64,000 nt of DNA from Planctomycetaceae bacterium (GTDB lineage Bacteria > Planctomycetota > Planctomycetia > Pirellulales > Pirellulaceae): NCBI GenBank assembly GCA_002723275.1, contig PBNZ01000024.1, positions 66,688-130,687 of the forward strand, given 5' to 3'. Shown here one piece after another: positions 6,444 through 29,124 of the stretch; within the stretch, counting starts at the first letter, position 1; each line of letters begins with the position of its first letter. A model generated the notes under the pieces. That model was given only the letters and a program-made list of their open reading frames with translations. It searched no databases and was not told the origin of the DNA. The position numbers were made by a program, and so were the translations under genes.

Positions 6444-6796
6444 GATACCGAATCCTCGATGGAAGACCGCGGTTCAATGCCGACTGTTAGCTCGAACAAG
6501 GCTGCTTTGTGTTGTGGCTTCATCTGTTCCGTCAGATTTGATGTTATGGCGTGCTTGAGAAAGGCAACCTTGCACTTGCCATTCTTGATCCAACGCCCCA
6601 CTCTAGACCTCAACAGCATTTGCAGGATTTTGGTCAAGCCTTCGGCCTCAGGATCAGCCGATATGTCATCTGAAAGTATTCGTTGTTCTTTTGGGTCGGA
6701 CGTTGTCGGTGAAATCAAACAGCTCCACACGTACCCTTGGTTAACGATGGGAGCTGCGAGAACAATCGGCCGGTGTTTAAATTTCTTTGTTTTCAC
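6440..6796 (-). CDS. Small protein of unknown function, translationally coupled between two NRPS genes
   Basis: This 118-residue protein starts at a GTG that overlaps the stop of the upstream NRPS (GTGA). Its own stop overlaps the GTG start of the downstream NRPS in the same way. Such double coupling suggests a real, co-translated gene and not a gap filler. It is basic at the N-terminus (MKTKKFKHRP), then has a hydrophobic stretch (IVLAAPIVNQGYVWSC) and a Lys/Arg-rich middle. I do not recognise the family. MbtH-like proteins often occupy this position in NRPS operons, but the conserved MbtH Ser-x-Trp and Trp-Pro motifs are absent, so it is not an obvious MbtH. It could be an accessory or partner protein of the synthetase, or a remnant of one. 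No signal peptide or clear membrane helix is seen. Confidence 0.6.
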   Translation of the reverse strand: MKTKKFKHRPIVLAAPIVNQGYVWSCLISPTTSDPKEQRILSDDISADPEAEGLTKILQMLLRSRVGRWIKNGKCKVAFLKHAITSNLTEQMKPQHKAALFELTVGIEPRSSIEDSVS

Positions 6797-9700: not shown

Positions 9701-10218
9701 CTTGAAATTGCGGCCGCACGGACTTGTTCAATTCCGTTCGCCTGACTTCGTAAATCAATTTCATCGATCGCCACCGCCTTTGATTCCGCGATCTGCTGAC
9801 ACGGCTCACCGTTTACAGAAACGAAATTTGTTCGAAGCACTTCATGGCGGCTAACGATCGCATTCAAGCTCGTTTTAAACGCATCAAAATCAAGCGATCC
9901 CTCGATTTCAATAGCAAATGGGATGTTGTAGGCAGGCGAACCAGGTTGCATCTCCTGAAGAAACCAGAGACGCTGCTGGGCAAATGAAAGAGGAATGCGG
10001 GCCGGTCTCTCAAGCCGTGTTATCTCAGTAGTCGGTTCCCCGGTCGGCTGTGCTTGCAGAAACGCAATTATCTCCGCCTTCCGGTCTGCCACTGCCGATT
10101 GAGCTTCGGCAACGATCTGCGCGGGGCCGGTGCACTTCAAGCGGTTGCCGTACGCCGTTAGTCGTACCCCCTCTCGGTACAAACGCCCTAGCAACTGCTC
10201 AACGGACTCGGAATTCAT
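6793..10218 (-). CDS. Non-ribosomal peptide synthetase, TubC dock-C-A-T
   Basis: This complete 1141-residue single-module NRPS starts at an ATG. Residues 1-50 resemble the TubC N-terminal docking domain (VEQLLGRLYREGVRLTAYGN), used to receive an intermediate from a separate upstream protein. A condensation domain follows (about 70-500, HHVVSDAWS), then an adenylation domain (about 530-1030; YTSGSSGTPKAV, NAYGPTETT, YKTGDLA, KNGKLDV) and a carrier domain with LGGHSL near the C-terminus. The specificity residues read by eye are DGPTLGAVN plus Lys, a combination I cannot assign to a substrate. There is no epimerase, reductase or thioesterase. The docking domain and its place as first gene left of the control region suggest that it takes the acyl chain from the second PKS and adds the first amino acid. 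That transfer is inferred. Confidence 0.95.
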   Translation of the reverse strand: MNSESVEQLLGRLYREGVRLTAYGNRLKCTGPAQIVAEAQSAVADRKAEIIAFLQAQPTGEPTTEITRLERPARIPLSFAQQRLWFLQEMQPGSPAYNIPFAIEIEGSLDFDAFKTSLNAIVSRHEVLRTNFVSVNGEPCQQIAESKAVAIDEIDLRSQANGIEQVRAAAISSAKEPFDLRNDLLLRVAVYRVENTRWVVLFTIHHVVSDAWSTEILLRELDRHYRAALLGKSAELPALPVQYADFSIWQREWLKGEVLTEQLGYWQQQLQGELPTLQLPTDYPRKRVQTFAGAVEHFSISADTTSKLTRLTQEYSASLFMTLMAAFNLFLRRYSGQQDLLVGTPIANRHRREVEGMIGLFVNTLAIRTKLRPRETFTDVLKRVRQTTLDAYQHQDLPFEKLVEALQPDRDMSLSPLFQVRFRLENAPPEEVNLPGIKLRRLPQEWVSAKLDLAVDMYETPKGLVGGFEYNKDLFAPETVRRMVEHFVTLLDSIANRPNGRVGDLSVMGADETHRNLLEWNRREKAFAENACYHELFEAQVERTPDSVAVIFDPATAEADRIELSYKDLNRRANQLARHLVTAGVGPEDIVAICIDRSVEMTVALLAVLKSGGAYVPLDPNYPKSRLAFLLGDSNAKILLTTSDISIGDEDYDRQRNGGCERIDIDSIDLDGYLATNLPSRASSDNLAYLIYTSGSSGTPKAVLVPHRGLVNLTEDKIRVCDIQPGDCVLQFFSFSFDGSVPEFVMTLAGGATLLVAPSTVLLPGRQLRQLLIDNRVSHITMTPSALTALPTDEYPSLRMVLVGGEAPSEELIEQWSPGRKFINAYGPTETTVNASMVQCGNGHATEATILPSTNKQLYVLDDELELTPIGVVGELHIGGIGLARGYHQQSALTAERFIPNPFPPDANRKYNVPLLYKTGDLACYLPDGRIRIVGRVDQQTKIRGYRIEVGEIEHVLEKHPKVRAALVRVRKMPNGDQQLDSYGVPVGSDAMNESAIRDYLAEELPKFMLPSTFQWIEAIPLTKNGKLDVAALPLPQANQEAEKIKPRTEAEERLAVIFAEVLTVSEIGVEDNFFDLGGHSLMATRLVSMVWDTFQVEITVIDLFDAPSIAELARRIEQKSHLSHLVNVVVDDGDREEISL

Positions 10219-10560: not shown

Positions 10561-13500
10561 GTGTCTGTTCACAATGGGTACCCGTCCCTGCGACCGATGC
10601 AAAACCAACCAGTTCCCGGTATGCCCACTGTCTCTGATTTTTTGACGTTTCGGGCGGCCCAGGACCCAAATCGTCTGGCCCTTCGTGTTGAACGACCGGA
10701 TCGAGTTGAGGACTGGGAAGACCAGTATTTTCCCGTCACATACGGGCAACTTCATGCTCAGGCTGCCGCCGTCGCAGCGAGCCTCCTGCAGGCGAGCTCA
10801 TTTTCGAGCGAATCTCAGCCGCGAGTGCTGGTCGCGACTCCGCCAGGAGTCGATTTCATTGCGTCCTTATTCGGCTGCTTTTTAGCGGGGGCCGTGGCGG
10901 TTCCAATTCATCCACCCACGGAATCGACGCGTCACCAGCGTAAGGTCCGTGGCGAGCGATGGGACAAGCTACTGGCAGATGCGAATCCCAGTCTTGTGCT
11001 AACGGACGCTCCATCGCAGGAACGCGTCCAAAAACTTCTGTCGCGTAATGTTCCCCTCATGACAACGAACTGTGCATCCGAAATCTTAGCGATGTCCAAT
11101 TCGGGGCCAGAAACAGAAGGTTCGGTTTCAGATAGACGACCTGGATCGGAACCAAGGTCTCCAGGCATCGATAGCGAATGCTTAGATGGGGACGGTCCTA
11201 GGAAGATTGCTTTTTTGCAATACACGTCTGGATCGACCGGAGATCCGAAGGGCGTGATCGTCACGCACGACAACCTTTCGCACAACCTGGAGCAGATTCG
11301 ACGGCGATTTCGACACGATGAGACATCGCGCGGCGTTATTTGGTTGCCGCCTTTTCACGATATGGGACTGATTGGTGGCATCCTGCAGCCGATTTACGCC
11401 GGTTTTCCGGTATTGCTGATGGATCCGGCTTCGTTTATTCGAAATCCTTTTCGCTGGCTCGAAGCTATCAGCCGTTTTCGTGGAACCACGAGTGGAGGCC
11501 CGAGTTTTGCCTACGAATACGCTGTACGCCGTATCTCGAAGCAACGCATCGAAGACTTGGATTTAAGTTGCTGGTCGGTGGCCTTTGTAGGTGCTGAAGC
11601 TGTTCGGGCTTCGTCGCTCAATCGCTTTGCGAAAACATTCGAGTGTTGCGGATTTTCGAAGTCATCGTTTCTTCCGTGTTATGGGTTAGCAGAAGCAACG
11701 TTGATGGTGAGTGGCGATCGAATATCTGATTTGAGAACGGTTTCCATTTCGGATGCCCCGGTCAGTACAGAGGCGCCGGGGCACCAACTCGAAGGAGGGA
11801 GCCAGTCCGCAAATTCCAAGAAGAACTTAGTCGATTTGGTTCCTAATGGGACACCTGTGGACGACTTGGACATACGTATTGTCGACCCCGAGACAAGACG
11901 CGAATGCCCGAGAGAACAGGTGGGAGAGATTTGGGTTGCCGGACCGAGTGTGGCGAACGGATATTGGAATCGAACAAAGGAGACGAAGGAAACGTTTGGT
12001 GCAACGCTGGTGCAAAACAGTGATCCCGAATCCAATCAGGTCGAACGTTCGTTTCTCAGAACCGGCGATCTTGGTTCGATTCAGAATGGTGAGATCGTCA
12101 TTTGTGGTCGAATCAAAGACTTAATCGTGATTCGCGGGCAGAACTTCTATCCGCCCGACTTAGAACGTTGTCTTGAAGAAGAGGTCCCCGGCTCTGTGGA
12201 GCAGTCGACGGCAGTGTTCTCGGTGGAAGACGATCATGCCGAACGACTGATCGTCCTTTTCGAAACGAGAAAAGCCATTGGCAACCAAGGGAATTCTGAG
12301 CGGCTGCAGATGATTCGAGCCGTGATCTCCCATCATTACTCGATTCAAGTGCAAACGATCGTTGGTGTGAAGACTGGCAGCTTACCTCGTACGACAAGTG
12401 GCAAGATTCGTCGGCGGGCTTGCCGCGAAGATTTTCTTGCCGGCAACTTGGCTAGGATTGTGAGTTGGTCTGCACCTGCAGATTTGTCACCATCAAACTC
12501 TACGGAGTCGATGCTGCCTGACGAAAATGTTGCATCGCCCCAAGCTGTTACGTCGGATCAAGTCCGAGACTGGCTTGTTAAGCTGCTTGCGGCAAGACTT
12601 GGGGTCTCGCCTGCTGACGTCTCGCCGACGCGGCCTCTTGCAGAGTTGGGCATTGATTCGTTGACGGCCGTTGAGATAGCGGACGCAATGACTCAAAAAC
12701 TCCAGCTCGCGGAGCCATTGCAGCCAACAATAGCCTGGTCTTACCCAACGATCGATGCGTTGATCGCACATGTTTGTTCCAAAGCTCAATCCGAGCAAGA
12801 TCCAGCATTAGAGTTGAACGATGCTGGTAGCGAGGGAGAAAGCGCCGGTGACCCAAATGGGCAAGATCAGACCTTGAAGCCGGTGGTAGAGAATTTACCC
12901 GCGCCGTTAGGTGGTGATTCGGAATCGATCGCGATCGTTGGAATCGCTTGTCGATTTCCGGGGAACGCCGATTCTCCAGAGGCATTTTGGGAGTTGCTGA
13001 GGGGCGGAGTCGATGCCGTCACGGAGGTTCCACCAGATCGATGGGATGTTGATGCCTATTATGATTCAAATCCCGAGACGCCAGGGAAAATGTATACCCG
13101 AGCTGGCGCCTTTCTGGATCGAATCGGTGATTTTGATCCAGAGTTCTTCGGGATCTCCCCGCGGGAGGCGGCGCATCTTGATCCTCAGCAACGACTACTG
13201 CTTGAATCGAGTTATCTGGCATTGGCTGATGCTGGTTTCGATCCACTCAAATTACAAGGGTCAAATACAGCCGTATTCGTCGGGATGACTCAGGATGAAT
13301 ACGCACAGAGAACCATCCGATCTGGTGACCCAATACAGATTCACCCTCATAGCGCGTTAGGAACATCGCGGGCCGTAGCAGCGGGAAGGATTGCCTATGA
13401 ATTCGGCCTGCAGGGGCCCGCAATCCAACTCGACACAACCTGCTCTTCTTCGTTGGTTGCTGTTCATGCCGCGTGCCAATCTTTGCGGACCGGCGAGGCT

Positions 13501-16500
13501 GAGTCTGCCCTTGCGGGGGGCGTCAATCTGATCCTTTCGCCGGAGTCGTCGATTGCGTGCTGTAAGTTGCAAGCGTTATCCCCCGATGGACGTTGCTACA
13601 CTTTCTCGGACCGGGCCAATGGTTATGTTCGAGGTGAAGGTTGCGCAATGATTGTCCTTCAGCGAGTGTCGGATGCAATCGCCGAATCGCGACCGATCTA
13701 TGGCATCATTCGAGGGTCAGCTGTTAATCATGACGGAGTCAGTAACGGATTGACCGCTCCCAATGGAAACGCTCAAGTCGCCGTGGTTCGCCGTGCCCTT
13801 GAGCAAGCTAAAATGCAACCATCCCAGATCGACTACGTTGAGGCTCATGGGACGGCGACACCGTTGGGAGATCCAATTGAACTGGAATCGCTTAGCGAAG
13901 TGTTTGGGGATCGTGATGCGCCACTCTTGGTCGGTTCAGTAAAAACCAATATCGGGCATCTGGAGTCAGCTGCGGGTATTGCCAGTTTGATCAAGGTCGT
14001 CTTGGCGATGCAGCAAGGAATCATTCCGGCTCATCTCCAATGCTCTAGGAAAACAAAACAGTTCAATTGGTCGCAGAGTTCAATTCAAATCGCGCGTACT
14101 CAGGTCGATTGGCCCCGACAAAACAATTCGCGTTCTGCGGGTGTCAGTAGTTTTGGGATGAGTGGGACGAATGCTCATGTTATCGTCGAACTGCCTGATT
14201 CGATCTCGCGACGAGCGTCTTGGGAGCATTCGAATAGTAGCGGTTCTGAATCGCACTCATCGCCATTTAAACGCCAACGCTTCTGGATTGAATATCCGGA
14301 GTTAACGTCGGATCGCTCAACAAAGAGCGTTCCCGTCATTTTAAATGCGGTTAACGAGATTCCACTTGGTGGAACTCGTATGCGCTGCTTCGATGCTAGG
14401 GTGGGGCAAGGCACTTTGTCGCAGCACCAGGTCTGTGGTGCGGCGATTCTTCCCGCGACGGTGCAACTATGGTTAGCTGGTAGTGCGTTTCAGCGAACGG
14501 GCCAGGAAATGTGGCAGGCGACGGATGTGCGTTTTTGGGAGGCTGCCTGTCTTTCTGACTCGGAAGATTCGCGGTTGCAGATACAGATCGTACCCGAGGC
14601 AGCGGAGGGATCTCAATTCGAACTGTACCAAGAAAACCCGGAATCCTGGGTTTTGAAATGTTGCGGTCGAATTGATGGCTGGGACGGTTCCCTTTCAACG
14701 AATCTTCTGCAGTACGAAATGCTACAAGGCATGCCACTTGAGTCAGGCATCCTTTACAGCCGATTTCGTGAACGCGGGATCGATTATGGTCCCCAGTTCC
14801 AATTGGTTGATGAATTAGTTGTTGCGGGTGATCTTGCAATTTCGCGGGTTTCGCTCTCTCCCAGTCGAGATTTTTGGTTGGCCCGATTGTGGGACGCTGG
14901 CCTGCAAAGTGCCGGTGCGCTGTTCGAGCCTGGTCGTCATACTCTCGTTCCGGTTGCATTCGAACGTTTTGCCGCTCATCAAGCCATACCTTTTGAGTCC
15001 GTACAGAAGGCCAATATTATTGTCCGCCGACGACAGGATTGCGTTGACATCTTGTGGCTAAGTCGTGAGCGGGTTCCGGTCGCAGAAGCAATTGGTCTCC
15101 AAGTGGCGCCGTTTGATCCGTCGGCGATCGACAAGCAGAATGTTCACACCACCAACCGTTCAGTTTCTGCATCAGTCGATTTGCACGGGTCTCCCTACTT
15201 TGAACTGTGTTGGGAGAAGCGTGCGAGGCCGCAAGGATGCGGGCAATTCTTTCGTTCTCCGCGTAATGTGTCTGACGCTGCAGGTCCCTTTGTCGAAGAA
15301 CTCTTTTCATCAAGCAGCTTTAAGGAATATGAAACCCAAGTCGCCTGCTGGAATGATCGTGCCAAGAGATATTTTGAGATGGCCGTTGCCAACGTTCCGG
15401 AATCATCGTGGGTTGAACCGTACGGAGCGTTAAGGGAACGAGCTAAAACGCATTCGGAATCAAAGCCGACAAGGGAGGTGCGGGACAAAACGTCGCGATT
15501 CGAGACTGCTCCTGAGGATCAGTTGGTTGATCGTGTGGGATCTCAGTTAATGGAAATTGTAGCCGGAAAAAAAGACGCCATGTCGGTCCTTTTTCCCGAG
15601 GGTAGCACGTCGCTTCTGGCTGAGTTGTACGAGTCGTCTCCGACCGGAGCCTTAGTCAACTCAGTTGTCTCGCAGGTTCTGCGAACGGTTTTTGATTCAA
15701 AGCCAGATCGGCCATTGAGAGTCCTCGAAGTCGGGGCTGGTACAGGCGGAACCACGAGCCATGTGATTGAGGAGTTGCAGAACGCCGGTGTCGATTTCGA
15801 ATATCATTTTACGGATGTGTCTCGATTGTTGCTGAATCAGGCTGAGCAGAGATTCAGTCACGAAGATCTGAAACTGAAGTATTCCAGCCTGGATATCGAG
15901 GAGTCTCCAGCAACGCAAGGGTTTGGGTACGCCGATTTTGATCTCGTCATAGCGGCAAATGTGGTACATGCGACGCGTTCGGTGAATGAATCCCTTCAGC
16001 ATGTGCGGCAGTTGTTGGCTGACGATGGACTGTTGCTTTTGGTCGAAACAACAACGCGTGAACCGTGGCTTGACCTGGTATTCGGTGTAACTGATGGTTG
16101 GTGGCGTTTTAAAGATCATGAACTTCGACCCGATCACGCTCTTGTCGCGGAAGATCAATGGCGAAAAGTTTGTTTGTCGGCTGGATTCAGCGATGTCGAA
16201 GTGCTTGCCGGTTGTGTCGTTGTTGCACAGCAGCAAAAGTCGGCAAGTCCCGCCCGGCCGCAGGCCGTTGCGTTGGCGGACGAAGTAATTGATGTGAGGC
16301 AGCTTGCGTCGAAAGAAACGATCATGACCTTGCCTCGCGTTTGTTCCGCGGATCTTGGCAGTATCGCCATGCGGAATTGCACGGAACTGTTGCAACTAGT
16401 TCAGTCGGTCCTCGCTCAACAGGATGCATCGAATCGACGCGTCATCGTCGTCGCCTCCAATGATTCCGCGGCCGACCGGTTGATCGCGTCTGCCTGTTGG

Positions 16501-18888
16501 GGACTCTTGCAAACGATTTCCATAGAGCACCCTGAACTTAAGGCAACACTGATTTCAAGCGACAGCCCGGAAGCCAGTTGGGACGAAATCTGTAATGGCG
16601 GTGGAGAGTTACGGATTGATCTTCGTGACGGACAGCGTGCCATTGCTAAGCTTGAGCAGGCAACGATTGATCTGAATGGTATGAAGGCGACTGTTGGAGA
16701 GGAAGATTGCAAATATGATTCATCGCTTGCCCAGGAACAAAAAGACGTTCATCGACTCGTTAGCGATGCTACTGGTACGCTCGAAGGGCTTCAATGGAAG
16801 TCTGTTTCACGACGAATGCCGGTTGGCAACGAGGTTGAGATTGAAGTTCATAAGGCTGGTCTTAATTTTCGAGATGTGTTAATTGCGATGGGGATTTATC
16901 CCGATCCAGCTGAGTTGGGATGTGAGTGTGTAGGGGTCGTCTCGCGGTATGGACCAGGCGTCACTGACCTGCAGGTTGGGGAGCGTGTTGCGGTTATTTC
17001 GAGTGGATGTTTTGCCAATTACGTCGTGGCACCTCGTGCCCTCGTCGTGCCAGTGCCGTCCGGCATGGATGCAAGTGTTGCTGCGTCATTGCCAGTTGCC
17101 TTTGCAACGGCGATTCTCTGCTTGCGAAATCTAGCGCGCCTTGAAGCCGGTGATTCAGTACTTTGGCACACGGCGACAGGGGCGGTGGGCCAGGCAGCTA
17201 TTCAAGTGGCACGGTCCGAGGGGGCCAGGATCATTGCGTCTGCTAGTCGCAAGAAATGGTCGAAGCTCAAGGAGCTTGGGGTTGAGGATGTAGTGGACTC
17301 ACGCAGTCTCGAGTTTGTCAATGACGTCCGGCGCATGACGCAAGGAAAAGGGGTGCAGATTGCCGTCAACTGTCTGCCGGGAGAGTTTCGCAGGGCAACG
17401 CTCGATGTAGTAGCCCACGGCGGAAGTTTCATTGAAATCGGCAAAGGCGAGGGATTAACCGCGGAAGAGATTAATCGGTTGAGACCGGATGTTAAATTTG
17501 AGTCGTTTGATTTGAGTAAGCTATGCCTGACCGATGAGGAGGCTGTTGCTAATTCACTGTCATTGGCCGTCGAAAACGTAAGGACAGGCCGATGGAGGGC
17601 GCCCGAAGTATGCGATTATGATTTCGTGCAGGCTGGTGAAGCGTTCCGGACGATGCAACAGGCAAAGCACACGGGAAAACTCCTATTGGATTTTGGCAGG
17701 TTAGCACCGTCGAATGATAATGGTGAAGAACGACTACAGCCGGCAGATAATTCGGTTGTTTTAATCACAGGCGGTCTTGGTGGATTGGGGCTCATGACCG
17801 CCCAGTGGCTCGTGGAACGCGGTGAAAAGCATCTTGTATTGTTGAGTCGAAAGGGAGTCGTATCGGAGCAGCAGAAAGAAGTCGTAGATCGGATACGTAA
17901 CAGCGGCGTCATTGTTGATGTGTTGACCGTTGACGTCTCGGATGCTGACCAGCTTGCCACCGCATTGAAGCGGTTTTTGGATGGGAGTGGGCCCCCGTTG
18001 CGCGGCGTGATACACGCTGCTGGCGTACTGGCGGATCATCGGCTTGAGCAACAAACCGAAGAGACCTTCCAGGAGGTATTCAAACCGAAAGCGATTGGAG
18101 CTTGGAATCTTCACGAGCTAACGAAAGATCTATCGTTGGAATATTTCATCCTGTTTTCATCCGCGGCGGGAGTTTTTGGAGCACCCGGTCAAGCCAATCA
18201 TGCGGTTGCCAATAGTTTTCTGGATGGCCTCGTGCAATATCGGGCTTCATCGGGATTGCCAGCATTAAGTATTGCTTGGGGGCCCTGGGCGGAGATGGGG
18301 GCAGCCACTCGTTATGCTGAGCAGGGCGAGCTCCGGGGATTACCCGGGGTTGAGCTGATTACACCAGATGAGGGCATTCGATGCCTGCAGGAAATTTTTT
18401 CGGTTCAACATAGAACCATTGTTGTTCTTCCGATCGATCGGAGTCGGCTGAATGAGTCTCGTTGGGTTCAAAACGTTGGGTTCGAGATTGCAGATGATTT
18501 AATCGATGTTTCGTCGAGTGGGATCGATACTGAGCCCTTGATTGATTTTAGCGACGGCAAAGAGTTAGGCGCATACCTGCGGGAAAGTCTGGGCCAAACG
18601 TTAGGCATGGCGCCAGATTCGATTGATTCATCGAAGGGCTTTTTTGAAATGGGCCTGGATTCCCTCACGGCACTTGAACTTAAGAATCGTCTGGAACGCG
18701 ACCTGCGGATCGAGTTGCCGTCGACAATCGCGCTGGATTATCCCACGCTCGATGCACTCCAGAAATATCTCAGCGGACTGATGTTTGAAAAGAGTGAGAT
18801 AGCTGAGAAGGATGCGATGGATGAGCAGAATGTTGCCGATGAACTCGATCGGAAGCTCAATGAACTTGATGATTACTTTCGACAATAA
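10561..18888 (+). CDS. Fatty acyl-AMP ligase/AT-less polyketide synthase (FAAL-ACP-KS-DH-MT-ER-KR-ACP)
   Basis: This 2775-residue loading and first extension protein has these parts in order: a fatty acyl-AMP ligase at about 20-610 (YTSGSTGDPKG, LPPFHDMGLIGGILQP, typical of FAAL and not of acyl-CoA ligases); an ACP with GIDSL near 696; a KS at about 789-1210 with active-site DTTCSSS near 960 and EAHGT; a DH with HQVCGAAILP near 1288 and a DAGLQ second motif; a C-methyltransferase with VLEVGAGTGGTT near 1721; an ER at about 2065-2380; a KR at about 2397-2620 with GGLGGLG; and an ACP with GLDSL near 2698. A charged C-terminal tail (DELDRKLNELDDYF) looks like a docking helix. No acyltransferase exists: the KS is followed at once by the post-AT linker motif FKRQRFW. 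His replaces the usual KR Tyr. The start is uncertain: GTG at 10561 sits 2 bases after GAGGAG, and ATGs at 10597 and 10621 are alternatives. Confidence 0.95.
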   Translation: MSVHNGYPSLRPMQNQPVPGMPTVSDFLTFRAAQDPNRLALRVERPDRVEDWEDQYFPVTYGQLHAQAAAVAASLLQASSFSSESQPRVLVATPPGVDFIASLFGCFLAGAVAVPIHPPTESTRHQRKVRGERWDKLLADANPSLVLTDAPSQERVQKLLSRNVPLMTTNCASEILAMSNSGPETEGSVSDRRPGSEPRSPGIDSECLDGDGPRKIAFLQYTSGSTGDPKGVIVTHDNLSHNLEQIRRRFRHDETSRGVIWLPPFHDMGLIGGILQPIYAGFPVLLMDPASFIRNPFRWLEAISRFRGTTSGGPSFAYEYAVRRISKQRIEDLDLSCWSVAFVGAEAVRASSLNRFAKTFECCGFSKSSFLPCYGLAEATLMVSGDRISDLRTVSISDAPVSTEAPGHQLEGGSQSANSKKNLVDLVPNGTPVDDLDIRIVDPETRRECPREQVGEIWVAGPSVANGYWNRTKETKETFGATLVQNSDPESNQVERSFLRTGDLGSIQNGEIVICGRIKDLIVIRGQNFYPPDLERCLEEEVPGSVEQSTAVFSVEDDHAERLIVLFETRKAIGNQGNSERLQMIRAVISHHYSIQVQTIVGVKTGSLPRTTSGKIRRRACREDFLAGNLARIVSWSAPADLSPSNSTESMLPDENVASPQAVTSDQVRDWLVKLLAARLGVSPADVSPTRPLAELGIDSLTAVEIADAMTQKLQLAEPLQPTIAWSYPTIDALIAHVCSKAQSEQDPALELNDAGSEGESAGDPNGQDQTLKPVVENLPAPLGGDSESIAIVGIACRFPGNADSPEAFWELLRGGVDAVTEVPPDRWDVDAYYDSNPETPGKMYTRAGAFLDRIGDFDPEFFGISPREAAHLDPQQRLLLESSYLALADAGFDPLKLQGSNTAVFVGMTQDEYAQRTIRSGDPIQIHPHSALGTSRAVAAGRIAYEFGLQGPAIQLDTTCSSSLVAVHAACQSLRTGEAESALAGGVNLILSPESSIACCKLQALSPDGRCYTFSDRANGYVRGEGCAMIVLQRVSDAIAESRPIYGIIRGSAVNHDGVSNGLTAPNGNAQVAVVRRALEQAKMQPSQIDYVEAHGTATPLGDPIELESLSEVFGDRDAPLLVGSVKTNIGHLESAAGIASLIKVVLAMQQGIIPAHLQCSRKTKQFNWSQSSIQIARTQVDWPRQNNSRSAGVSSFGMSGTNAHVIVELPDSISRRASWEHSNSSGSESHSSPFKRQRFWIEYPELTSDRSTKSVPVILNAVNEIPLGGTRMRCFDARVGQGTLSQHQVCGAAILPATVQLWLAGSAFQRTGQEMWQATDVRFWEAACLSDSEDSRLQIQIVPEAAEGSQFELYQENPESWVLKCCGRIDGWDGSLSTNLLQYEMLQGMPLESGILYSRFRERGIDYGPQFQLVDELVVAGDLAISRVSLSPSRDFWLARLWDAGLQSAGALFEPGRHTLVPVAFERFAAHQAIPFESVQKANIIVRRRQDCVDILWLSRERVPVAEAIGLQVAPFDPSAIDKQNVHTTNRSVSASVDLHGSPYFELCWEKRARPQGCGQFFRSPRNVSDAAGPFVEELFSSSSFKEYETQVACWNDRAKRYFEMAVANVPESSWVEPYGALRERAKTHSESKPTREVRDKTSRFETAPEDQLVDRVGSQLMEIVAGKKDAMSVLFPEGSTSLLAELYESSPTGALVNSVVSQVLRTVFDSKPDRPLRVLEVGAGTGGTTSHVIEELQNAGVDFEYHFTDVSRLLLNQAEQRFSHEDLKLKYSSLDIEESPATQGFGYADFDLVIAANVVHATRSVNESLQHVRQLLADDGLLLLVETTTREPWLDLVFGVTDGWWRFKDHELRPDHALVAEDQWRKVCLSAGFSDVEVLAGCVVVAQQQKSASPARPQAVALADEVIDVRQLASKETIMTLPRVCSADLGSIAMRNCTELLQLVQSVLAQQDASNRRVIVVASNDSAADRLIASACWGLLQTISIEHPELKATLISSDSPEASWDEICNGGGELRIDLRDGQRAIAKLEQATIDLNGMKATVGEEDCKYDSSLAQEQKDVHRLVSDATGTLEGLQWKSVSRRMPVGNEVEIEVHKAGLNFRDVLIAMGIYPDPAELGCECVGVVSRYGPGVTDLQVGERVAVISSGCFANYVVAPRALVVPVPSGMDASVAASLPVAFATAILCLRNLARLEAGDSVLWHTATGAVGQAAIQVARSEGARIIASASRKKWSKLKELGVEDVVDSRSLEFVNDVRRMTQGKGVQIAVNCLPGEFRRATLDVVAHGGSFIEIGKGEGLTAEEINRLRPDVKFESFDLSKLCLTDEEAVANSLSLAVENVRTGRWRAPEVCDYDFVQAGEAFRTMQQAKHTGKLLLDFGRLAPSNDNGEERLQPADNSVVLITGGLGGLGLMTAQWLVERGEKHLVLLSRKGVVSEQQKEVVDRIRNSGVIVDVLTVDVSDADQLATALKRFLDGSGPPLRGVIHAAGVLADHRLEQQTEETFQEVFKPKAIGAWNLHELTKDLSLEYFILFSSAAGVFGAPGQANHAVANSFLDGLVQYRASSGLPALSIAWGPWAEMGAATRYAEQGELRGLPGVELITPDEGIRCLQEIFSVQHRTIVVLPIDRSRLNESRWVQNVGFEIADDLIDVSSSGIDTEPLIDFSDGKELGAYLRESLGQTLGMAPDSIDSSKGFFEMGLDSLTALELKNRLERDLRIELPSTIALDYPTLDALQKYLSGLMFEKSEIAEKDAMDEQNVADELDRKLNELDDYFRQ

Positions 18889-18906
18889 TTAACACGGCGC
18901 GCGACA

Positions 18907-21900
18907 ATGATGGACAGTGACCCACAAAATGAGGCTCGCATGCGACGGGCTCTCGATGTCATCGATAAATTGCAAACGCGTTTGATGGCTGCTGAGCAAT
19001 CAAGCGGCGAACCGATTGCAATCGTCGGCATGTCCTGTCGCTTCCCTGGTGGCGCTGATAGTCCGGAATCCTTCTGGGAAGGATTGTTGGAGGGACGCGA
19101 TGCGATAAGACCGGTTCCGACTGATCGCTGGGATGCCGATTCGTTTTATGATCCCACGGGCAACGCGCCGGGGAAAACGATTGCACGCGAGGGCGGATTT
19201 ATTGAGGATGTGCATTCTTTTGATGCGGACTTTTTTGGGGTTTCTCCCCGCGAAGCCAAAAAGCTAGACCCCCAACAACGATTGCTTTTGGAAGTCGCCT
19301 GGGAGGCGATGGAACGAGCCGGAATCATCCCACGAGAATTGTCTGGAAAGCAAGTTGGCGTCTTTCTTGGTATCAGCAGTAATGACTATTCGAGGTTACT
19401 CGCGACGCAGTCTCGTGATGGAATTGACGCGTATGATGCTACTGGGAATTCGCTGAGTGTTGCCGCCGGGCGGCTCTCCTATGTTTTCGGGTTTGAGGGC
19501 CCGAGTATGAGCGTTGATACCGCATGTTCATCATCGCTGGTAGCCGTTCACGTCGCATGCCAGAGCCTTCGTAACCGAGAGTGTGACGCTGCCCTGATTG
19601 GGGGCGTCAATCTGATCCTGACGCCCGATCTAAGTATTACCTTCTCGCAGGCGCAAATGTTAGCGCCTGACGGTCGGTGCAAGACGTTTTCCGCTTCAGC
19701 CGACGGATTCGCCCGGGCGGAGGGTTGCGGCGTCCTTGTTGCCAAGCGTCTGTCGGATGCTCGCGCGGCGGGTGATCATGTGCTTGCGGTCATTCGAGGT
19801 TCGGCCGTTAATCAGGATGGTCGGAGTGGAGGACTGACGGTTCCCAATGGACCCGCTCAACAACGCGTGATTCAAGACGCCTTGAAGCGATCGAATGTGC
19901 TCGAATCCCAAATCGACTACATAGAAGCTCACGGTACCGGGACGGAGCTCGGTGATCCCATCGAACTCCAGGCACTCGGGAATGTCTTTTCCATGCGTGC
20001 TTCGTCAGCGTCTCCGCTTTTCGTGGGATCGGTGAAGACGAATCTTGGGCATCTGGAAGCAGCGGCAGGAATTGCAGGACTCATGAAGGTTGTACTTGCC
20101 ATGCAGCATGAGCTGATTCCCCGCCATCTTCACTGTGACAAACTGACGACTCACGTTCCGTGGGATCGGATGCCAGTTCAAGTGGTTCAAGAGCCACGAG
20201 ATTGGCAATCGACGGAACCGCGGATTGCCGGCATCAGTTCGTTCGGATTCAGTGGAACAAACGCGCACGTCATACTAGAGAGTTGCGACCTTGCCGGTGC
20301 CGAACAGCCGTCAGATCAAGGTGACAAAGATGGCTACGCGATTTTGCTGATATCGGCGCGGTCGGATACCAGTCTTCGAATGCTGGCGAGTCGTTATGCG
20401 TCGCACCTTGAAGAAGGTGCCGACTGGCTGGATACCTGTTGGAGTTCTCATCAGTTTCGCTCTCAGTTTGAATCACGATTGGCAATTATATCTGATTCAA
20501 ACAGCGATGCAGCCAAGCAACTTCGTCGTTTTTCGGAACATCAGGTAGTGAACCTGCCTGGTCCGGCAGATGTCCCACCGACTGTCGCTCCGTTGATTGA
20601 GACTGCCCAAGGCTTTTGTCGCGGGGAAAAAGTTGCTTGGCCCGGAATTCCGGGAAATCGAATTCAGCTTCCGACCTATGCATTTAACCGAAAGCGTTTT
20701 TGGGTGGATGCCTCATCCAACGTGGAGGACAAGCCATGTGGCATGGTCGATACACCGATTACCCTGGCTCGTAGCGATATGACCTGTAGTCAAGCCGCTC
20801 CGAGCCTCTTTCGAGCGGAGCGTTGGAAAACTCACTGTTTGTCCGAGACACCCGTTATACCCGCGGTTGGACTGATCGAAATGGTGGTTGAAACGCTTGC
20901 TAAGTCAGGTATCAATCCGTCGGATTGCGTGTTTTCCGATATCCGATTTGCAAGTCCTTTGGTTGTTCGGGATGATCAAGTGGCTCAAGTTATTTGCGAG
21001 CGAAGTGATGACGAGATTCAGGCTGAAGTAGTTTCCTGTTCATCCCCGCCAAACTGGACGACCAATTGCCGATTGGATGCCCGGATTGGAGAGACTCAGC
21101 GCAGTTCTATCGTTCCTCCAAGTTTTGATGAGGTCCAGGATCTTCTTCGAGGTCCACAGGAGGTTCCCGCCGACGCGATTTATAATCGGCTGCGTCAACA
21201 AGGCATTACCTATGGAGATGGTTGGAAGATCGTCGACAGGGCACGCATGGATGGTGGACGCGTGGCTGCGAATCTGGTTCTTGACGAGGCAGACGAGAAT
21301 TTCGAATTTGACCCTCTAGTCCTCGATGCTTGTGTTCAGCTGATCGGTGCTGCATTCGTTGAAGAACAACGGGTTGAAACCTATCTTCCAGCGGGCGTCG
21401 GCAAGATGATTTTTCATCAATCACGGATCAGTGGTGGTCAATTTGTCGCATGTGCCGACGTCACACATGGCGAAGATTGGATTTCAGCCGATTTGCATCT
21501 GTTCGATGCTGACGGCTCTTGCTTGGTTTCGTTTGTTGATTTCGTTATTCGTCCTTTCGATATGCAACGGCTCGCTGCGGGTGTAGGAAAGCAGAAGAGC
21601 ATGGGTAGCACGTCGGTTGATGAGAGCGATCAGCGGGGGGTGTTCGATTGGCTCTACCAGTTGCAATGGGTGCCCGAAAAGCTTCCCCCTTCAGGTTCGA
21701 TTGATCCGTCTCGAATTGTGACGTCGCTCAAGCCAGATTTTCGGAGCAAGCTAAAGGAGCCGATGTCCTTAGAATATCTCGAGGGACTTGGCCAACTGGA
21801 TCAATGGGCGGCTACATTCGCACGCGAGATCGCGAAATCAGTTGATCCCGACGAGGTTATTGAAAGTCAGCGGCATTTGTATTCGCATCTGGTAGATGTA

Positions 21901-24900
21901 GCCGGGAGTCTGTCTGGAGCAAGCCTGGACTGGCCGAGGGACTGTGGGCCGGGAATGGCTCATGAATTCCGAATATTGGAACGATGTGCGAAAAATATTC
22001 CGGCTGTGTTGCGAGGCGAAAAATTACCCCTGGAAGTGTTGTTTCCTGACGGAGACAGCGACGAGTTGAATTGGCTGTATGAATCATCAACCGGTGCGAG
22101 GCTGATGAATTCGCAGGTGCGAGCGGTAGTCGAAGGCATTATGGACTCCGCGTTGCGGCCGTTACGGATCCTTGAGATTGGTGGCGGGACAGGGGGAACA
22201 ACATCCTGCTTGGCTCCCCTGTTTAAAGATTTTGGTGAATATGTTTTTACGGACGTTGCCGCCCTGCTGGTTGATCGAGCGAGTCAGCGGTTTGGAGATA
22301 ATTCGAATTTTAAGTTTTGCCGCCTGGATATTGAGTCTTCGCCGTTGACTCAAGGGTTCGAACGGCATTGTTTTGACGTTGTGTTGGCGGCGAACGTCCT
22401 GCATGCGACCTCTGACCTTGATGGCGTTCTTTCCAATATCCACCAGCTACTCAAGCCGACTGGTCAGCTCGTGATGCTGGAGGGCACTCGCTCATTGCTC
22501 TGGCTTGATTTGATCTTCGGACTGACGGAAGGCTGGTGGTCTTTTGCAGATCCAAGCTCCAACGAGAAAGCAACTGCGACATCGAATTCGGATGAGTCTC
22601 GGCAGCATCCCCTGATGTCCATTCAAAAGTGGGAGTCGCTGCTGAATCGGTCTGGGTACGACGTAGCCACGCTTTCGGACGCGGATCTTCCCCAGGCGGT
22701 ATTCGTTTCTGCAGTTGTCAGGGAAGCTGACAGTGTCTCGGATTCGACCCATCCTGTTTTAATCAAGAATTTAGGGGCTGTACATGCGGAGGTTTTGCGT
22801 GAACAGATCGAACCACATTCCGATCTGCAGCGAATGCTTTTCTTCGCCTCCGAGCCAGATTCAGCTTCTTGCACGGAACAGCTACATCGAGATTTAGGCG
22901 GATTATTGGATTGGGTCCAGAGTTGGGTGGCAAGTGAGTCGTTGCCGACTCAGTTGTTCGTCGTGACCCGAGGAGCGACGGGCCCGAATTGTTATCATCC
23001 CTTGGAAGGCGCACTTCAGGGGATGGCACGGACGATCGAATTGGAATTCCCAGAGTTGCATGTCTGTCGAATTGATCTTGATCCAATCGCTCCAATCGAT
23101 CAGCAGTTGGCGGACATTGCGAATGAGATTAATTCAGGGAGCCATGGAAGTATTCTTTATCGAGACCGTCGACGGTTCGTTGGCCGCATGGCGAGAGTGG
23201 AACCTCATGATCGGCTTCCTTGTCATCCGAATGAACCATTCCGGTTGAAACGAAATGATCAGGGTGCGGGCAATCAGATTGAGTTGGAAGCAATGGTGCG
23301 AAGAGCTCCTGGTGAGGCTGAGGTCGAGATCCAGGTGGAGGCTGCCGGTGCGAATTTTATTGATGCTTTGGATATGGCTGGCCTTCTCCCCTTTGAACGG
23401 GATTGGATAGGTGGCGAATTTGCGGGAACCGTCGTCGCGGTGGGCGGCGACGTCGCCAAATTTCAGATCGGTGATCGCGTCGTTGGACTTGCACCTGGGG
23501 CGTTCGCGTCTCACGTGATTGCGCCAGCAGCTTTAGTCGCTTGCTTGCCAGGAGCAAGTCTTACTGGCCCTCATTCTTTTCCTGAAGCCGCAACCATCCC
23601 GGCCAATGTTCTAACCGCAAAGATGGCCCTGTGTGATATTGGCCGATTGAAAGCTGGGGAACGTGTTCTGATTCATGCGGCTGCCGGGGGTACCGGTTTA
23701 GCTGCAGTCCGCGTGGCGATGGCGCTGGGCGCAGAAGTCTACGCAACCGCCAGTAAAGGAAAATGGCAATATCTAAAGAGCATTGGGGTGCGTAACATCT
23801 TTGACAGTCGTTCATTGTCTTTCGCGGGCGAAGTGATGGATGCCACATCTGGCAAAGGTGTTCACGTTGTCCTCAACTCGTTGACCGGTGAATACGTTGA
23901 CGAAGGCTTGAAGATTCTGGCATGTCGTGGGCGTTTTGTTGAAATTGGAAAACGCGATATTCGTTCCAGCGAACAAGTGCACAAAGTACGGACTGACGTT
24001 GAGTATTACGTTTTCGACTTAATGGCAATTTGCGAATCGATTGTTTCGGGAGACCAAGGAAACGTTTCTGCACCGCGTTCCCTTTTTGATGAACATGCAG
24101 AACTCACTATCACACAGCCTCTGCCTAAAACGGTCTTCCCCATGGAAGAAGCATCCCGGGCAATTCGTTATTTGCAGCGTGCTCATCATATTGGAAAAGT
24201 GGTTTTAGATTTTTCTGAAACTCGTTCGCCGATTGCGAAGAATGCAACTTATTTGATTACGGGAGGACTCGGTGGGCTTGGAATCAAAACTGCCGAATGG
24301 CTAGTGGAGCACGGCGCAGGGCGGATTTTATTATTGGGGCGTAGCATTCCAGAGCCGATTCCAGAGCCGCTCCGTCAATTAATGCAGCAGGCCGATACCG
24401 ACATTGAATTGCTTGCATGTGACGTCACCGATTTTGAGCAGCTCCGTAGAGCGATTGAAATTGCCAACTCGAATGGTTTATTGAGGGGGATAGTCCACGC
24501 AGCTGGTGTCCTTCACGATGGGATGCTCAGGCAATTGACATGGTCGGACATGTTCAAAGTCTTGGGACCGAAGGTGCTTGGAGCGCAGCATTTACACCAA
24601 CTGACAATTGGGCTCTCCCTTGACTTTTTTGTGCTCTATTCGTCGGCCGCCTCCTTGATCGGGTCTGCCGGACAGGCCAGCCATGTCTCCGCGAATGCCT
24701 ATCTTGATTCTCTGGCCCATCATCGACGTTGCCTCGGTCTGCCAGCTCAAACAATTAATTGGGGACCATGGTCTGAAGTGGGATCGGCGGCAAGTGAAAA
24801 AACACGCTCCCATCTTGAGCTGCACGGTATCGGGATCATTAATCCTGATGCTGGTTTGGCTGCCTTAGATCGAATTATGCAATGTCCGGATTTGACACAG

Positions 24901-25464
24901 GTGGGGGTTGTCCCGGTGGACTGGTCCCAAATGGCACGTCATGTGCCTGCGAGCGATAGGTTGCTCGTCGACCTCCTTCCGAAATCACAAGATGTTGAGC
25001 GTGCCTCAACTAAGAAGCTGACTGAAGGTGAATGGAGAAAACAGCTGCGAGATCTACCTAGCGGTGCGAGGGAAGCCGCTCTTGTTTCTATGCTGCAACA
25101 CGAACTGGGGCGTGTGCTCGGTTTTTCAAGTAATGAACTACCAGCGATCGACCGTGGCATCTTCGATTTGGGAATTGATTCTTTGATGAGTGTCGAATTA
25201 AAAAATCGATTGGTTCGGAATCTTGGAGTCGAAATCCCCTCAACGTTGTTGTTTCAATATCCGACTATTTCTGCACTCGCACCGAAATTGATCGAATCCA
25301 TGGAGAATCGAGAGCAGGAACAATCGCCCCATGAAGAATCCCAATCGCCACGGGTCTCATTGAATCGATCGGCTGTTGATCGGATTCCACTGGAGGATCG
25401 TAAAGAGGTCGAGTCTGAATTGGAGGCTCTTGAGCGGCTCTTGGGAGATCACGAGAAACCCTAA
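18907..25464 (+). CDS. AT-less polyketide synthase (KS-DH-MT-ER-KR-ACP)
   Basis: This 2185-residue second PKS module begins 18 bp after the first, in the same operon. A charged N-terminal helix (residues 5-35) looks like a class of docking coiled coil. The KS has DTACSSS near 205 and EAHGTGTELGDP. Residues 475-540 still carry the usual KS-to-AT linker (LLISARSDTSLRMLASRYA). The sequence then passes straight to the post-AT linker (LPTYAFNRKRFW, about 590), so the AT is missing. The DH has His near 644, but the motif Gly is Glu (HCLSETPVIP); the second motif DACVQ is intact. The methyltransferase has LEIGGGTGGTT near 1090. The ER (about 1458-1775) has IHAAAGGTGLAAVRVA. The KR (about 1778-2015) has GGLGGLG and GQASHVSAN, with His for Tyr. 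The ACP has GIDSL near 2089. There is no thioesterase, consistent with hand-over to an NRPS. The C-terminal acidic helix may dock to the next protein. Confidence 0.95.
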   Translation: MMDSDPQNEARMRRALDVIDKLQTRLMAAEQSSGEPIAIVGMSCRFPGGADSPESFWEGLLEGRDAIRPVPTDRWDADSFYDPTGNAPGKTIAREGGFIEDVHSFDADFFGVSPREAKKLDPQQRLLLEVAWEAMERAGIIPRELSGKQVGVFLGISSNDYSRLLATQSRDGIDAYDATGNSLSVAAGRLSYVFGFEGPSMSVDTACSSSLVAVHVACQSLRNRECDAALIGGVNLILTPDLSITFSQAQMLAPDGRCKTFSASADGFARAEGCGVLVAKRLSDARAAGDHVLAVIRGSAVNQDGRSGGLTVPNGPAQQRVIQDALKRSNVLESQIDYIEAHGTGTELGDPIELQALGNVFSMRASSASPLFVGSVKTNLGHLEAAAGIAGLMKVVLAMQHELIPRHLHCDKLTTHVPWDRMPVQVVQEPRDWQSTEPRIAGISSFGFSGTNAHVILESCDLAGAEQPSDQGDKDGYAILLISARSDTSLRMLASRYASHLEEGADWLDTCWSSHQFRSQFESRLAIISDSNSDAAKQLRRFSEHQVVNLPGPADVPPTVAPLIETAQGFCRGEKVAWPGIPGNRIQLPTYAFNRKRFWVDASSNVEDKPCGMVDTPITLARSDMTCSQAAPSLFRAERWKTHCLSETPVIPAVGLIEMVVETLAKSGINPSDCVFSDIRFASPLVVRDDQVAQVICERSDDEIQAEVVSCSSPPNWTTNCRLDARIGETQRSSIVPPSFDEVQDLLRGPQEVPADAIYNRLRQQGITYGDGWKIVDRARMDGGRVAANLVLDEADENFEFDPLVLDACVQLIGAAFVEEQRVETYLPAGVGKMIFHQSRISGGQFVACADVTHGEDWISADLHLFDADGSCLVSFVDFVIRPFDMQRLAAGVGKQKSMGSTSVDESDQRGVFDWLYQLQWVPEKLPPSGSIDPSRIVTSLKPDFRSKLKEPMSLEYLEGLGQLDQWAATFAREIAKSVDPDEVIESQRHLYSHLVDVAGSLSGASLDWPRDCGPGMAHEFRILERCAKNIPAVLRGEKLPLEVLFPDGDSDELNWLYESSTGARLMNSQVRAVVEGIMDSALRPLRILEIGGGTGGTTSCLAPLFKDFGEYVFTDVAALLVDRASQRFGDNSNFKFCRLDIESSPLTQGFERHCFDVVLAANVLHATSDLDGVLSNIHQLLKPTGQLVMLEGTRSLLWLDLIFGLTEGWWSFADPSSNEKATATSNSDESRQHPLMSIQKWESLLNRSGYDVATLSDADLPQAVFVSAVVREADSVSDSTHPVLIKNLGAVHAEVLREQIEPHSDLQRMLFFASEPDSASCTEQLHRDLGGLLDWVQSWVASESLPTQLFVVTRGATGPNCYHPLEGALQGMARTIELEFPELHVCRIDLDPIAPIDQQLADIANEINSGSHGSILYRDRRRFVGRMARVEPHDRLPCHPNEPFRLKRNDQGAGNQIELEAMVRRAPGEAEVEIQVEAAGANFIDALDMAGLLPFERDWIGGEFAGTVVAVGGDVAKFQIGDRVVGLAPGAFASHVIAPAALVACLPGASLTGPHSFPEAATIPANVLTAKMALCDIGRLKAGERVLIHAAAGGTGLAAVRVAMALGAEVYATASKGKWQYLKSIGVRNIFDSRSLSFAGEVMDATSGKGVHVVLNSLTGEYVDEGLKILACRGRFVEIGKRDIRSSEQVHKVRTDVEYYVFDLMAICESIVSGDQGNVSAPRSLFDEHAELTITQPLPKTVFPMEEASRAIRYLQRAHHIGKVVLDFSETRSPIAKNATYLITGGLGGLGIKTAEWLVEHGAGRILLLGRSIPEPIPEPLRQLMQQADTDIELLACDVTDFEQLRRAIEIANSNGLLRGIVHAAGVLHDGMLRQLTWSDMFKVLGPKVLGAQHLHQLTIGLSLDFFVLYSSAASLIGSAGQASHVSANAYLDSLAHHRRCLGLPAQTINWGPWSEVGSAASEKTRSHLELHGIGIINPDAGLAALDRIMQCPDLTQVGVVPVDWSQMARHVPASDRLLVDLLPKSQDVERASTKKLTEGEWRKQLRDLPSGAREAALVSMLQHELGRVLGFSSNELPAIDRGIFDLGIDSLMSVELKNRLVRNLGVEIPSTLLFQYPTISALAPKLIESMENREQEQSPHEESQSPRVSLNRSAVDRIPLEDRKEVESELEALERLLGDHEKP

Positions 25465-25467
25465 GGC

Positions 25468-28400
25468 TTAGTTACCGTCGGATGTTCCGGAAATGGGAAG
25501 CACATTATTATGTGGATTGCGATCCGGCAGCATGAGGTAGGAATCGACGCCAAAGCGAGTTGGCTTGTGATCAAGAAACCATTCAACGGTAGAACGGCCA
25601 CTTTTTAGTGACTTCAGTCGTGATTCGATTAAATCATCCTCCGCAAAGCCATGCCCACGGAAGGCATGCAGCCAGACGGGAGTGTCGAGCGGAACCTCCG
25701 TCTCAAGACCTTCGCCGGAAGTGATGAATTTCGCAGCATCAATTTCCGCAGTAAGTTTCCATCGACCATCTGAAGTGGGCTCGCAATTCGCTGCGATGAC
25801 CTCTAGCCGCCACGTTGTAACCCGCTCAAAAATGTCGGCTATTTGAGCGTGGAAATTTTCGTCGACTGAATTTTTTAGGTGCTCCAAGAAATCACGCGAT
25901 GTTGGGTATGGCGCAGAACGATGTCTCCAAGTCTCCAAGAATTCAGCGAAGATTGATTCAAGGTTTTCAACGCCGATCAGGCTGGCTAAGTACACCATCA
26001 GAATGGCCCCTTTTCTTCGGAGAATGGTCGAGTCCTTGATCTCCTCTGAAAAGGCTGCTTCTTCGTCTGCCATTGAGCTGCGGCTGCGAAATAATTCCAT
26101 CGTGTCTTGTAAACGCAAACGGCGATCAACCTCGGGTTCGCGTTGCTGATGCAAATAGAGTGCTGCCGACCAATACGGTAAACCGGCATGCAAGATTTTT
26201 GCTCCCGGAGTATTGGCTGGAATGATCTGGTCCCCAAACCATGACATACCCATTAAGTGGGCGGACATTTGGGCCAAGTCTTGACCGCGACTAACACTCA
26301 AATCTGATTTCCATCCAAGGATCTCTGTCGCAAATGCCAGACCGGAGCGGGCGCCCATCCCGTCATAGTGAAGCGATTGCTCTGCCATTTGAAACGTATC
26401 AAAAGGAGCCGGGCCATATCGGGATACGAAATGAGCCATGGCGGCGTGCAGTTGATGGCCGAATTCGTTGATGACAAAGGTGTGGCGAGGATCATAAACC
26501 ATCGTAACCTCAGGGAGGTCGTCTCGCTGAAATCGTTGCTCCACATAACGCCCGGTTAGGATGACGCTCCAACCGCGATTCCTTTTATCCATCACAAAAT
26601 GGAAAGCCTGACGACCGTTTTCCTCCGTCCAGCGACGCACGAGTTTTCCAGCGTGCAACACGGTTTGGTCCGCGTCCGTTCGAATCGTCATGTCAACGTT
26701 GTCGACCCAACCTAGATGTGCGGTTGAATGTGCTTCGTTTTTTCCAGCTTCAAAGGGTGGAGGTCTCCATGCCTCCCTTAATCCGTATTTTCGCCGTTTC
26801 CATCTCGGTTTGTGTTCAATTCGATCTGAATATCCAACGGCGGGCATCAGCTGCAAATTTAAAAGTGAGCTTCCATTGCCGATGAGTTCCACAGGCAACA
26901 CCTCAGGAGTCCCGTCATTTTTAGCGTGAACTGAGAATCCTTCAGGGGGAGCGTGCGAGGTAACAAACTCCAATTGAATTTGCTCGTTCGGGCGTAATTC
27001 CTTGGCCAGGCGAAATTCAGTTGCATTGAGTTCGGGAGTGACGGATTCGATGGTCGCGTCTGAACTCAGCGCTAAATTTTCAACGACGAGTCCGGGTTCC
27101 GCCAGCACTAAAAGTCGATCAATATTCCGTTGGGATTGATTTTCCAGTGTTTGAGTTCCGCGGAAATGCCAACGTCGTTGACTCGGGTATAGATCAAGCT
27201 CACCCTGAATCGAGACAAGTTTCGGCTGTGGTACGCCTCGCCATTTCGCGGCAAATTGTTTTTCGATTTTCGCCATGTGCTGATCGGGATTTACGGGCGG
27301 CCATGGTGCATTCCAGGTGGACTGTGCCCAGACTTGAATTCCGACGCAGATGAAGGCAGCAATAAGTCCAGAAAGAGACAAAAGGAATTTGGGGCGTCGA
27401 ATGGCACCACGCAACAAAGTTAATCTGGACGGTGGATAGAGTCCTCTGGCATAGCATCCTAAGGCTATCATCCACACGATGGCAGTTCCAAGAGACCAAT
27501 AGAGAACTAGCCAAGCGTGTGCACGTCCAAAGTGACCGTATCCATCCATGAGAGAGTACCAGAAAAAACTCACCCGTCCGAATCGATAAATCGGGTGATA
27601 GAAACCGATCGCGTCGAGCATGATTTCTGATGCGAAAATTAATAACACGATGCACATGGCAACGTACCGTTGTCGAAGGATGACGTTTGCGCCAATTGCG
27701 ATGACAGCAAACCAGAGGTAGTAAGGTGCCTTGAACAGGAAGACATCAACGAAGTAGAGCGGCAACTCGAATTGGTAATAGCCCTTGGCAAGTTGGTAGA
27801 TCAGGTTCACACCGATGGCGATCAACCAGAATACGAACACCACAAACATGAGCACCAGGGTCTTTGATGTGAGTCGGGCTGTATCGCTTGTCGGAAGCGA
27901 CTCGACGAGCTCGCTCACATGATGTGATTGCTCTCGCCAGATAATATCTGTTGCGGTGATGACGATCACCGCTAGAAGTGCTTTGTCGAAATAAAAGCCT
28001 GTATTGTGGAGTAAGAGATCAGTGCTAGGCAGGGAGAACTGATGAGTTACGGCACTTGCGGCGCTCCACCAAAGGGAAAACGCTGCAATCAAAAGCAACA
28101 GCCGGAGGCCAGGTGTGCGACTTACGCAACGCAATTCCCAGCAGAACATTTGTTGGACCTGACGGCCGAATGATGGTGGACCGATCGTTCGTGGCAAAGA
28201 CGATACGATGTCGGACACTTCGGGCCGAGCCCGTGAGGCTCTTCTTCGTTTCCAACTTCGATTACGGTTTGCGTTTACGTATATGGGAAGCGACCAAACT
28301 CCAAGTGCGATAAAAATCGAGCCTATTCCGCACCAGATCATTCGGTTGATCACGATCAGGCCGACGAATGGTGGGAACTCAGTATTCTTTTGGAGAATTG

Positions 28401-29106: not shown

Positions 29107-29124
29107 CAGCTTAGATCCTCGCCG

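Follow-up and report, generated by a model that had tools for sequence, protein, structure and literature searches.

Two adjacent polyketide synthase modules of cis-acyltransferase descent that lack the acyltransferase in a planctomycete, with FabD as candidate supplier of extender units

Two adjacent polyketide synthase (PKS) proteins of a Planctomycetaceae bacterium (assembly GCA_002723275.1), P0001 and P0002, each carry one extension module without an acyltransferase (AT). They are probably modules of a lipopeptide line descended from cis-AT ancestors, from which the AT core was lost by in-frame excision, so that the housekeeping malonyl-CoA:acyl carrier protein (ACP) transacylase (MCAT) FabD would load malonyl in trans and the C-methyltransferases (cMT) would add methyl branches. 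The genes lie in the window, which is the whole stretch of 64,000 nucleotides analysed, positions 66,688 to 130,687 of contig PBNZ01000024.1 (G000:C24:66688-130687, where G000 is the window's own genome of 6.8 Mb in 47 contigs). Positions below are those of the window unless a contig is named.

Both genes are intact open reading frames on the + strand, P0001 at 10561-18888 (GTG start, 2775 aa) with module 1 (M1) and P0002 at 18907-25464 (2185 aa) with module 2 (M2). Searches with Pfam, NCBIfam and custom hidden Markov models (HMMs) gave the domain order fatty acyl-AMP ligase (FAAL)-ACP-ketosynthase (KS)-dehydratase (DH)-cMT-enoylreductase (ER)-ketoreductase (KR)-ACP for P0001 and KS-DH-cMT-ER-KR-ACP for P0002. 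Acyl_transf_1 of Pfam had zero matches in the two proteins at E≤0.001, and at the same threshold a custom HMM made from AT domains likewise found no AT in either. The initial annotation, which had read KS, DH, cMT, ER, KR and ACP but no AT in both modules and had proposed an HMM search for AT as a check, was confirmed on these points; the FAAL and the extra ACP at the N-terminus of P0001 were absent from it. The FAAL domain of P0001 (10651-12453) has its AMP-binding match at residues 31-469, with fatty-acid--AMP ligase models reaching to about residue 633, and is followed by a loading ACP (12631-12840), one of two PP-binding stretches in the protein, with the GIDSL serine motif at 12649-12663. 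The KS of module 1 (12922-14043; motifs TTCSSS, EAHGT and KTNIGH), its DH, cMT, ER and KR (14341-18330) and its extension ACP (18571-18780; GLDSL at 18652-18666) come next. Module 2 has its KS at 19009-20136 (TACSSS, EAHGT, KTNLGH), DH, cMT, ER and KR at 20797-24786 and the extension ACP at 25087-25296 (GIDSL at 25171-25185). The ER is of zinc type in both proteins (Pfam, E≤0.001). An assembly error behind the missing ATs is unlikely because neither frame is broken and two other genomes encode a first protein with this AT-less make-up.

Decayed or non-elongating modules, in a line that is dead or skips them, are another explanation, and such decay could account for the loss of the KS-AT linker together with the AT in P0001 and for the atypical DH motif of P0002, HCLSETPVIP, which has Glu where Gly is usual. 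This explanation is very improbable, as frames, KS motifs, S-adenosylmethionine motifs of the methyltransferases and carrier serines are all intact in both modules, and an AT-less first module of the same make-up is intact in genomes G006 and G059. In the KRs of both window modules (10561-25464) the catalytic residue that is usually Tyr is His; considered as an oddity, this was rejected, and it is ordinary because 28 of the 59 readable KRs in ER-bearing modules share it (60 further KRs were unmatched by the pattern).

What was cut can be measured between two anchors, NAHVILE at the end of the KS and LPTYAFNRKRFW of the post-AT linker. The distance is 129 aa in P0002 and 423-459 aa in 21 AT-bearing modules, with 368 aa in one more (22 of 40 have both anchors), so that P0002 is short of about 300 aa, the size of one AT core. 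The AT-less modules of the cis group described below show 121-155 aa in 12 cases and 209 aa in one (13 of 17 with both anchors). P0002 keeps the KS-AT linker domain (20152-20544; KAsynt_C_assoc and CurL-like_PKS_C, with LLISARSDTSLRMLASRYA at 20344-20400) and, across the junction before which the core is missing, the post-AT linker (20569-20706, with LPTYAFNRKRFW at 20668-20703). P0001 retains FKRQRFW (14266-14286) as sole remnant of the post-AT linker, and its KS-AT linker has gone too. The nearly joined linkers of module 2, the lone FKRQRFW of module 1 and the three motifs quoted for them were thus found as first described. The use of these linkers as a reason for cis ancestry did not hold up. 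Among 12 trans-AT reference modules compared, 5 had a recognisable motif of LPTYPF type, and according to a review the KS-AT linker persists in trans-AT KSs (PMC11907408). Linker retention was consequently rejected as proof, being not diagnostic of a cis origin because trans-AT modules keep the linkers too.

The structure predicted for residues 1-640 of P0002 (predicted local distance difference test score 80.1, predicted template-modelling score 0.81) has a KS-AT linker domain that is mostly confident except at residues 463-474. In sequence the model is closest to the cis KS of CurL (52% identity). Without an AT, it also fits the outline of the trans-AT KS of bacillaene, at 38% identity and with a TM-score by target of 0.85 over about 610 columns. 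Such a match, and AT-less modules with the linker shell retained, would fit a classical trans-AT line with a dedicated AT that escaped detection or falls in a gap of the assembly. The shell, which is the AT-docking region, is seen in module 2 but not in module 1, and since cis-AT modules have it too it does not discriminate. A line of that kind is nevertheless very improbable given the placement of the KSs in trees, and given that no second discrete AT was found in G000, whereas G020, a trans-AT genome taken for comparison, encodes FabD and also a separate discrete AT on the contig with its PKS.

KS trees of 245 and 83 rows, the smaller also computed under a mixture model, placed both window KSs among AT-bearing modules. 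Both fall in a group of 57 rows, of which 40 are AT-bearing, 17 AT-less and none trans-AT, with support of 100/99 under two models. The sister of the M1 KS is a Nostoc mirabile cis module (99/92 under both models) and that of the M2 KS a cis module of an Alcaligenaceae metagenome-assembled genome (MAG; 99/92 and 98/94). Best identities to cis KSs are 63% for M1 and 68% for M2, compared with 43-47% and 46-49%, respectively, to the three best-scoring trans-AT rows. When M1 and M2 were constrained to group with trans-AT rows, of which 13 out of 14 were used, the tree became 103.8 log units worse (approximately unbiased, AU, test, p 0.026), and when M2 alone was so constrained 106.5 log units worse (p 0.0285); the omitted row, L060_1_1, had grouped with AT-bearing rows. 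The 57-row group leaves out four AT-bearing rows, of which two come from the other PKSs of G000. Among solved structures the best single KS match of module 2 in a sequence search was CurL (609 bits), followed by Lsd14 and DEBS, with the trans-AT PksL at 423 bits; the score of the top-listed entry, 7zma, adds up two KSs that reach about 354 and 362 bits. The 245-row set excludes 13 loci that overlapped others and KS hits shorter than about 330 aa, and the 83-row tree holds 44 of 190 AT-bearing, all 25 AT-less, 14 of 22 trans-AT and none of 8 undecidable rows. Trans-AT loci were labelled from annotation and absence of AT. Contig loci were chosen for similarity to aligned AT-less modules, the best 80 of at least 585 relatives being retained, and the 165 KS modules counted in them comprise 150 with an AT, 10 without (in 6 loci) and 5 undecidable.

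These placements support descent of both modules from cis-AT modules and not from the classical trans-AT line, as had been proposed from the sequence at the outset; the KSs, which had been suggested as a test of that proposal, stand inside the cis-AT group and not in the trans-AT clade. The closest kin in make-up are fully reducing, methylating cis-AT modules such as those of Acaryochloris (L096), Nostoc mirabile (L082) and Gloeocapsa (L053), with KSs 63-68% identical and the order KS-(AT)-DH-methyltransferase (MT)-ER-KR, which differ in carrying the AT that the window modules lack.

Loss of the AT is not peculiar to the window pair, as it recurs in several lineages of the KS trees. The 17 AT-less modules are scattered through the 57-row group among other Planctomycetota, Acidobacteria, Desulfobacteraceae and Proteobacteria. 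From the window's own order come the two G006 modules and module 1 of G059, whose partner module 2 carries an AT, and both genomes have an intact first protein, FAAL-ACP-KS-DH-MT-ER-KR-ACP, AT-less like P0001. Further AT-less modules of the group belong to Ca. Methylobacter oryzae (2), Methylosinus trichosporium OB3b (2) and an Acidobacteria MAG (4), with one each in MAGs of Desulfobacteraceae, Magnetococcales, Proteobacteria and Planctomycetota. Six of these proteins, encoded in five of the genomes, had no Pfam AT match at E≤1e-5, while the Acidobacteria and Methylosinus modules are called AT-less by custom HMMs only. Eight AT-less rows outside the cis group (L046, L047, L050 and L051, from G037 and G056) are excluded from the 17; these loci encode long multi-KS proteins of mostly AT-less modules, two of them FAAL-primed. 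The AT-less label changes 15 times on the tree, 9 or 10 of the changes being forced by well-supported branches, in a count that includes those eight rows. A single clade for all 17 rows was rejected (291.7 log units, p 9e-7), as was one for the five AT-less rows of the window's order (p 0.0009). M1 and M2 as sisters were 44.3 log units worse and not rejected (p 0.204), so that separate AT losses in the two modules are favoured by the trees without being forced by them.

In locus L044 of G059, 943 bp are shared with 92% DNA identity between the AT-bearing and the AT-less module (9184-10126 against 15761-16703), in a stretch made up of the latter half of the KS together with the KS-AT linker. 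A near-identical KS-linker stretch therefore exists with and without an attached AT, which suggests gene conversion or recent duplication. Within the window's order AT loss looks uncommon, since 20 stretches from that order (59 of 196 genomes matched) held no module callable as AT-less, three KSs at the ends of stretches being unjudgeable. Partial AT matches of 52-97 profile positions were seen inside PKSs of the related genomes G007 (C292:89285-89527, with a second AT piece by custom HMM), G037 (C15:51566-51721) and G056 (C162:12181-12465), and these are either degenerating or merely divergent. The data do not support the idea that AT loss generally requires a C-methyltransferase, as an MT was found in only 4 of the 17 AT-less rows of the cis group. 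The chances are about even that cis-AT modules have become FabD-dependent repeatedly, and still do so, by clean excision of the AT core, which would be a second and independent route to AT-less PKSs beside the old trans-AT lineage. The stages visible along such a path would be the near-identical pair of G059 with and without AT, modules with the AT gone and the linker kept, and M1 of the window with the linker gone as well. The points of interest are that excision was repeated at similar boundaries and that lines exist in which no AT at all was found (the window, and G006 as fetched). Among the titles and abstract openings listed in literature searches, in a collection lacking most subscription papers, none described recurrent AT excision from cis-AT modules, but an earlier description is possible.

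With no AT in the modules, the extender units would have to come from elsewhere, and a six-frame search of the whole G000 genome (E≤0.001) gave four AT matches (C29:157033, C29:218557, C24:41363 and C24:28313). Three are inside other PKSs and one is a discrete protein of 316 aa, which passes the fabD model TIGR00128 with 307.4 bits against a cut-off of 260.9 and whose gene stands in a row with fabG, acpP and fabF. No dedicated discrete AT encoded with the window line was found in this genome-wide search, the FabD-like protein being the only discrete one. In G006 there are six AT matches, of which a single one is discrete; it passes TIGR00128, and fabG and acpP adjoin it. Of the two matches in G059, one is discrete and passes TIGR00128 and the other lies in module 2 of G059's own line. 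In G020 the discrete AT on the PKS contig has a likeness of 148 bits to the FabD of G000, and the FabDs of G006, G020 and G059 have 379-419 bits. From these inventories FabD emerges as the best candidate for the extender supply. The window line resembles a trans-AT line in its working and is by descent a cis-AT line with its ATs lost, and it fits neither class fully because its KSs lie outside the trans-AT clade, no dedicated AT was found and no AT is integrated in its modules.

Several observations weigh against FabD as supplier or against the reading as a whole. Three multidomain PKSs of G000, two of which share the window's contig, carry ATs that are possible suppliers in trans, and with a completeness of 96.6% in 47 contigs a further AT of this genome may be unseen. 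TIGR00128 alone cannot tell FabD from a trans-AT because the presumed dedicated trans-AT of G020 passes it too. The FabD-like gene of G059 (L180, G059:C1:1966001-1978000) has no match to fabG, acpP or fabF within 12 kb, and for this reason its housekeeping role is assigned from its sequence alone. Of six more genomes with AT-less cis-group modules, five have 1-3 discrete ATs besides cis-ATs and the sixth, G065, showed no discrete AT, so that these inventories neither single out nor exclude FabD. To these are added the atypical DH motif of P0002 and the lack of a detected MT in 13 of the 17 AT-less cis-group modules, by which the argument from the cMT given below is not general.

Loading of the window ACPs between proteins by the AT of another PKS of G000, likeliest one of the two on the same contig (C24:28-42 kb), is the alternative to be taken most seriously, although it is unlikely. 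Two KS-AT-KR-ACP proteins are indeed encoded about 35-50 kb upstream in a run of PKS and non-ribosomal peptide synthetase (NRPS) genes, and the partner module 2 of G059 has an AT of its own. On the other side, cognate AT-ACP pairs are preferred at least 10-fold according to the accessible part of a review (PMC6164871), none of the six AT matches of G006 is near its AT-less cluster at 5.12 Mb, and the cis-ATs of G000 sit in complete modules of their own. Self-malonylation of the ACPs, or another AT-free route, is the least probable explanation; self-acylation of the PipC ACP was seen at 25 µM and above, but in the text available it is a background to catalysis by FabD (PMC12828459), and nothing in the window suggests that route.

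Under the proposed loading by FabD, the FAAL would load a fatty acid onto the first ACP and FabD would load malonyl in trans onto both extension ACPs. Each KS would then condense, each cMT would add a methyl branch, and KR, DH and ER would reduce fully, giving a fatty acyl chain longer by 4 carbons with methyls at C2 and C4, to be handed to the divergent NRPS. A supplier of malonyl only would suffice because each window module has a cMT. Precedents are available in the accessible parts of three papers. FabD was shown kinetically to load the PipC ACP (PMC12828459), production of barnesin in E. coli implies FabD (PMC13096860), and MCAT rescues an AT-deleted module 6 of DEBS (PMC6164871). The pseudotetraivprolide PipC and barnesin BrnF systems resemble the window in having no AT in the cluster, with FabD reported as the serving genome AT. 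They are called trans-AT PKSs in both papers as far as accessible, and the window differs in its two FAAL-primed, C-methylating modules of cis ancestry. The AT-null DEBS module 6 is a cis-AT module without AT and served in trans by MCAT/FabD as proposed here, but was made in the laboratory. Bacillaene-type trans-AT PKSs share with the window modules without AT and a similar KS-linker outline in module 2, and differ in their KS clade and in the dedicated trans-AT gene that was not found for the window. The line is less surprising because mixed cis/trans assembly lines have already been catalogued (473 of 8799; PMC10394414), in a paper whose accessible text does not state the source KS clade of their AT-less modules.

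If the proposed reading is true, assembly lines can drop the gatekeeping AT and take their building blocks from primary metabolism while staying outside the trans-AT lineage, and nature has repeatedly made what engineers built as AT-null DEBS. AT-less modules now pooled as trans-AT may then have two distinct origins. The natural excision boundaries, which remove the AT core and leave both the KS-AT and the post-AT linker in place, offer a guide to engineers.

The NRPS genes stand head to head with the P0001/P0002 pair. The nearer one (6793-10218, - strand) has an N-terminal TubC_N docking domain before condensation, adenylation and thiolation domains, is divergent from the PKS genes and is probably the next station of the assembly line. 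The second (1-6443, - strand) crosses the start of the window, its full gene encoding 2719 aa with three condensation and two adenylation stretches. Downstream of P0002 is an ABC transporter pair (25468-30024, - strand), with a permease-like protein of 1212 aa and an ATPase of 299 aa, possibly an exporter. The gene content of the cluster is consistent with a lipopeptide line primed by a fatty acid. Upstream on the same contig, G000:C24:18-62 kb holds two AT-bearing PKSs, several NRPSs and a MatE exporter. PSCyt1, PSD1 and DUF1501 genes also occur within the window and suggest a planctomycete. At 57903-60554 (- strand) a protein of 883 aa carries a protein kinase domain and, after it, a Peripla_BP_5 periplasmic binding domain, which looks like an unusual fusion.

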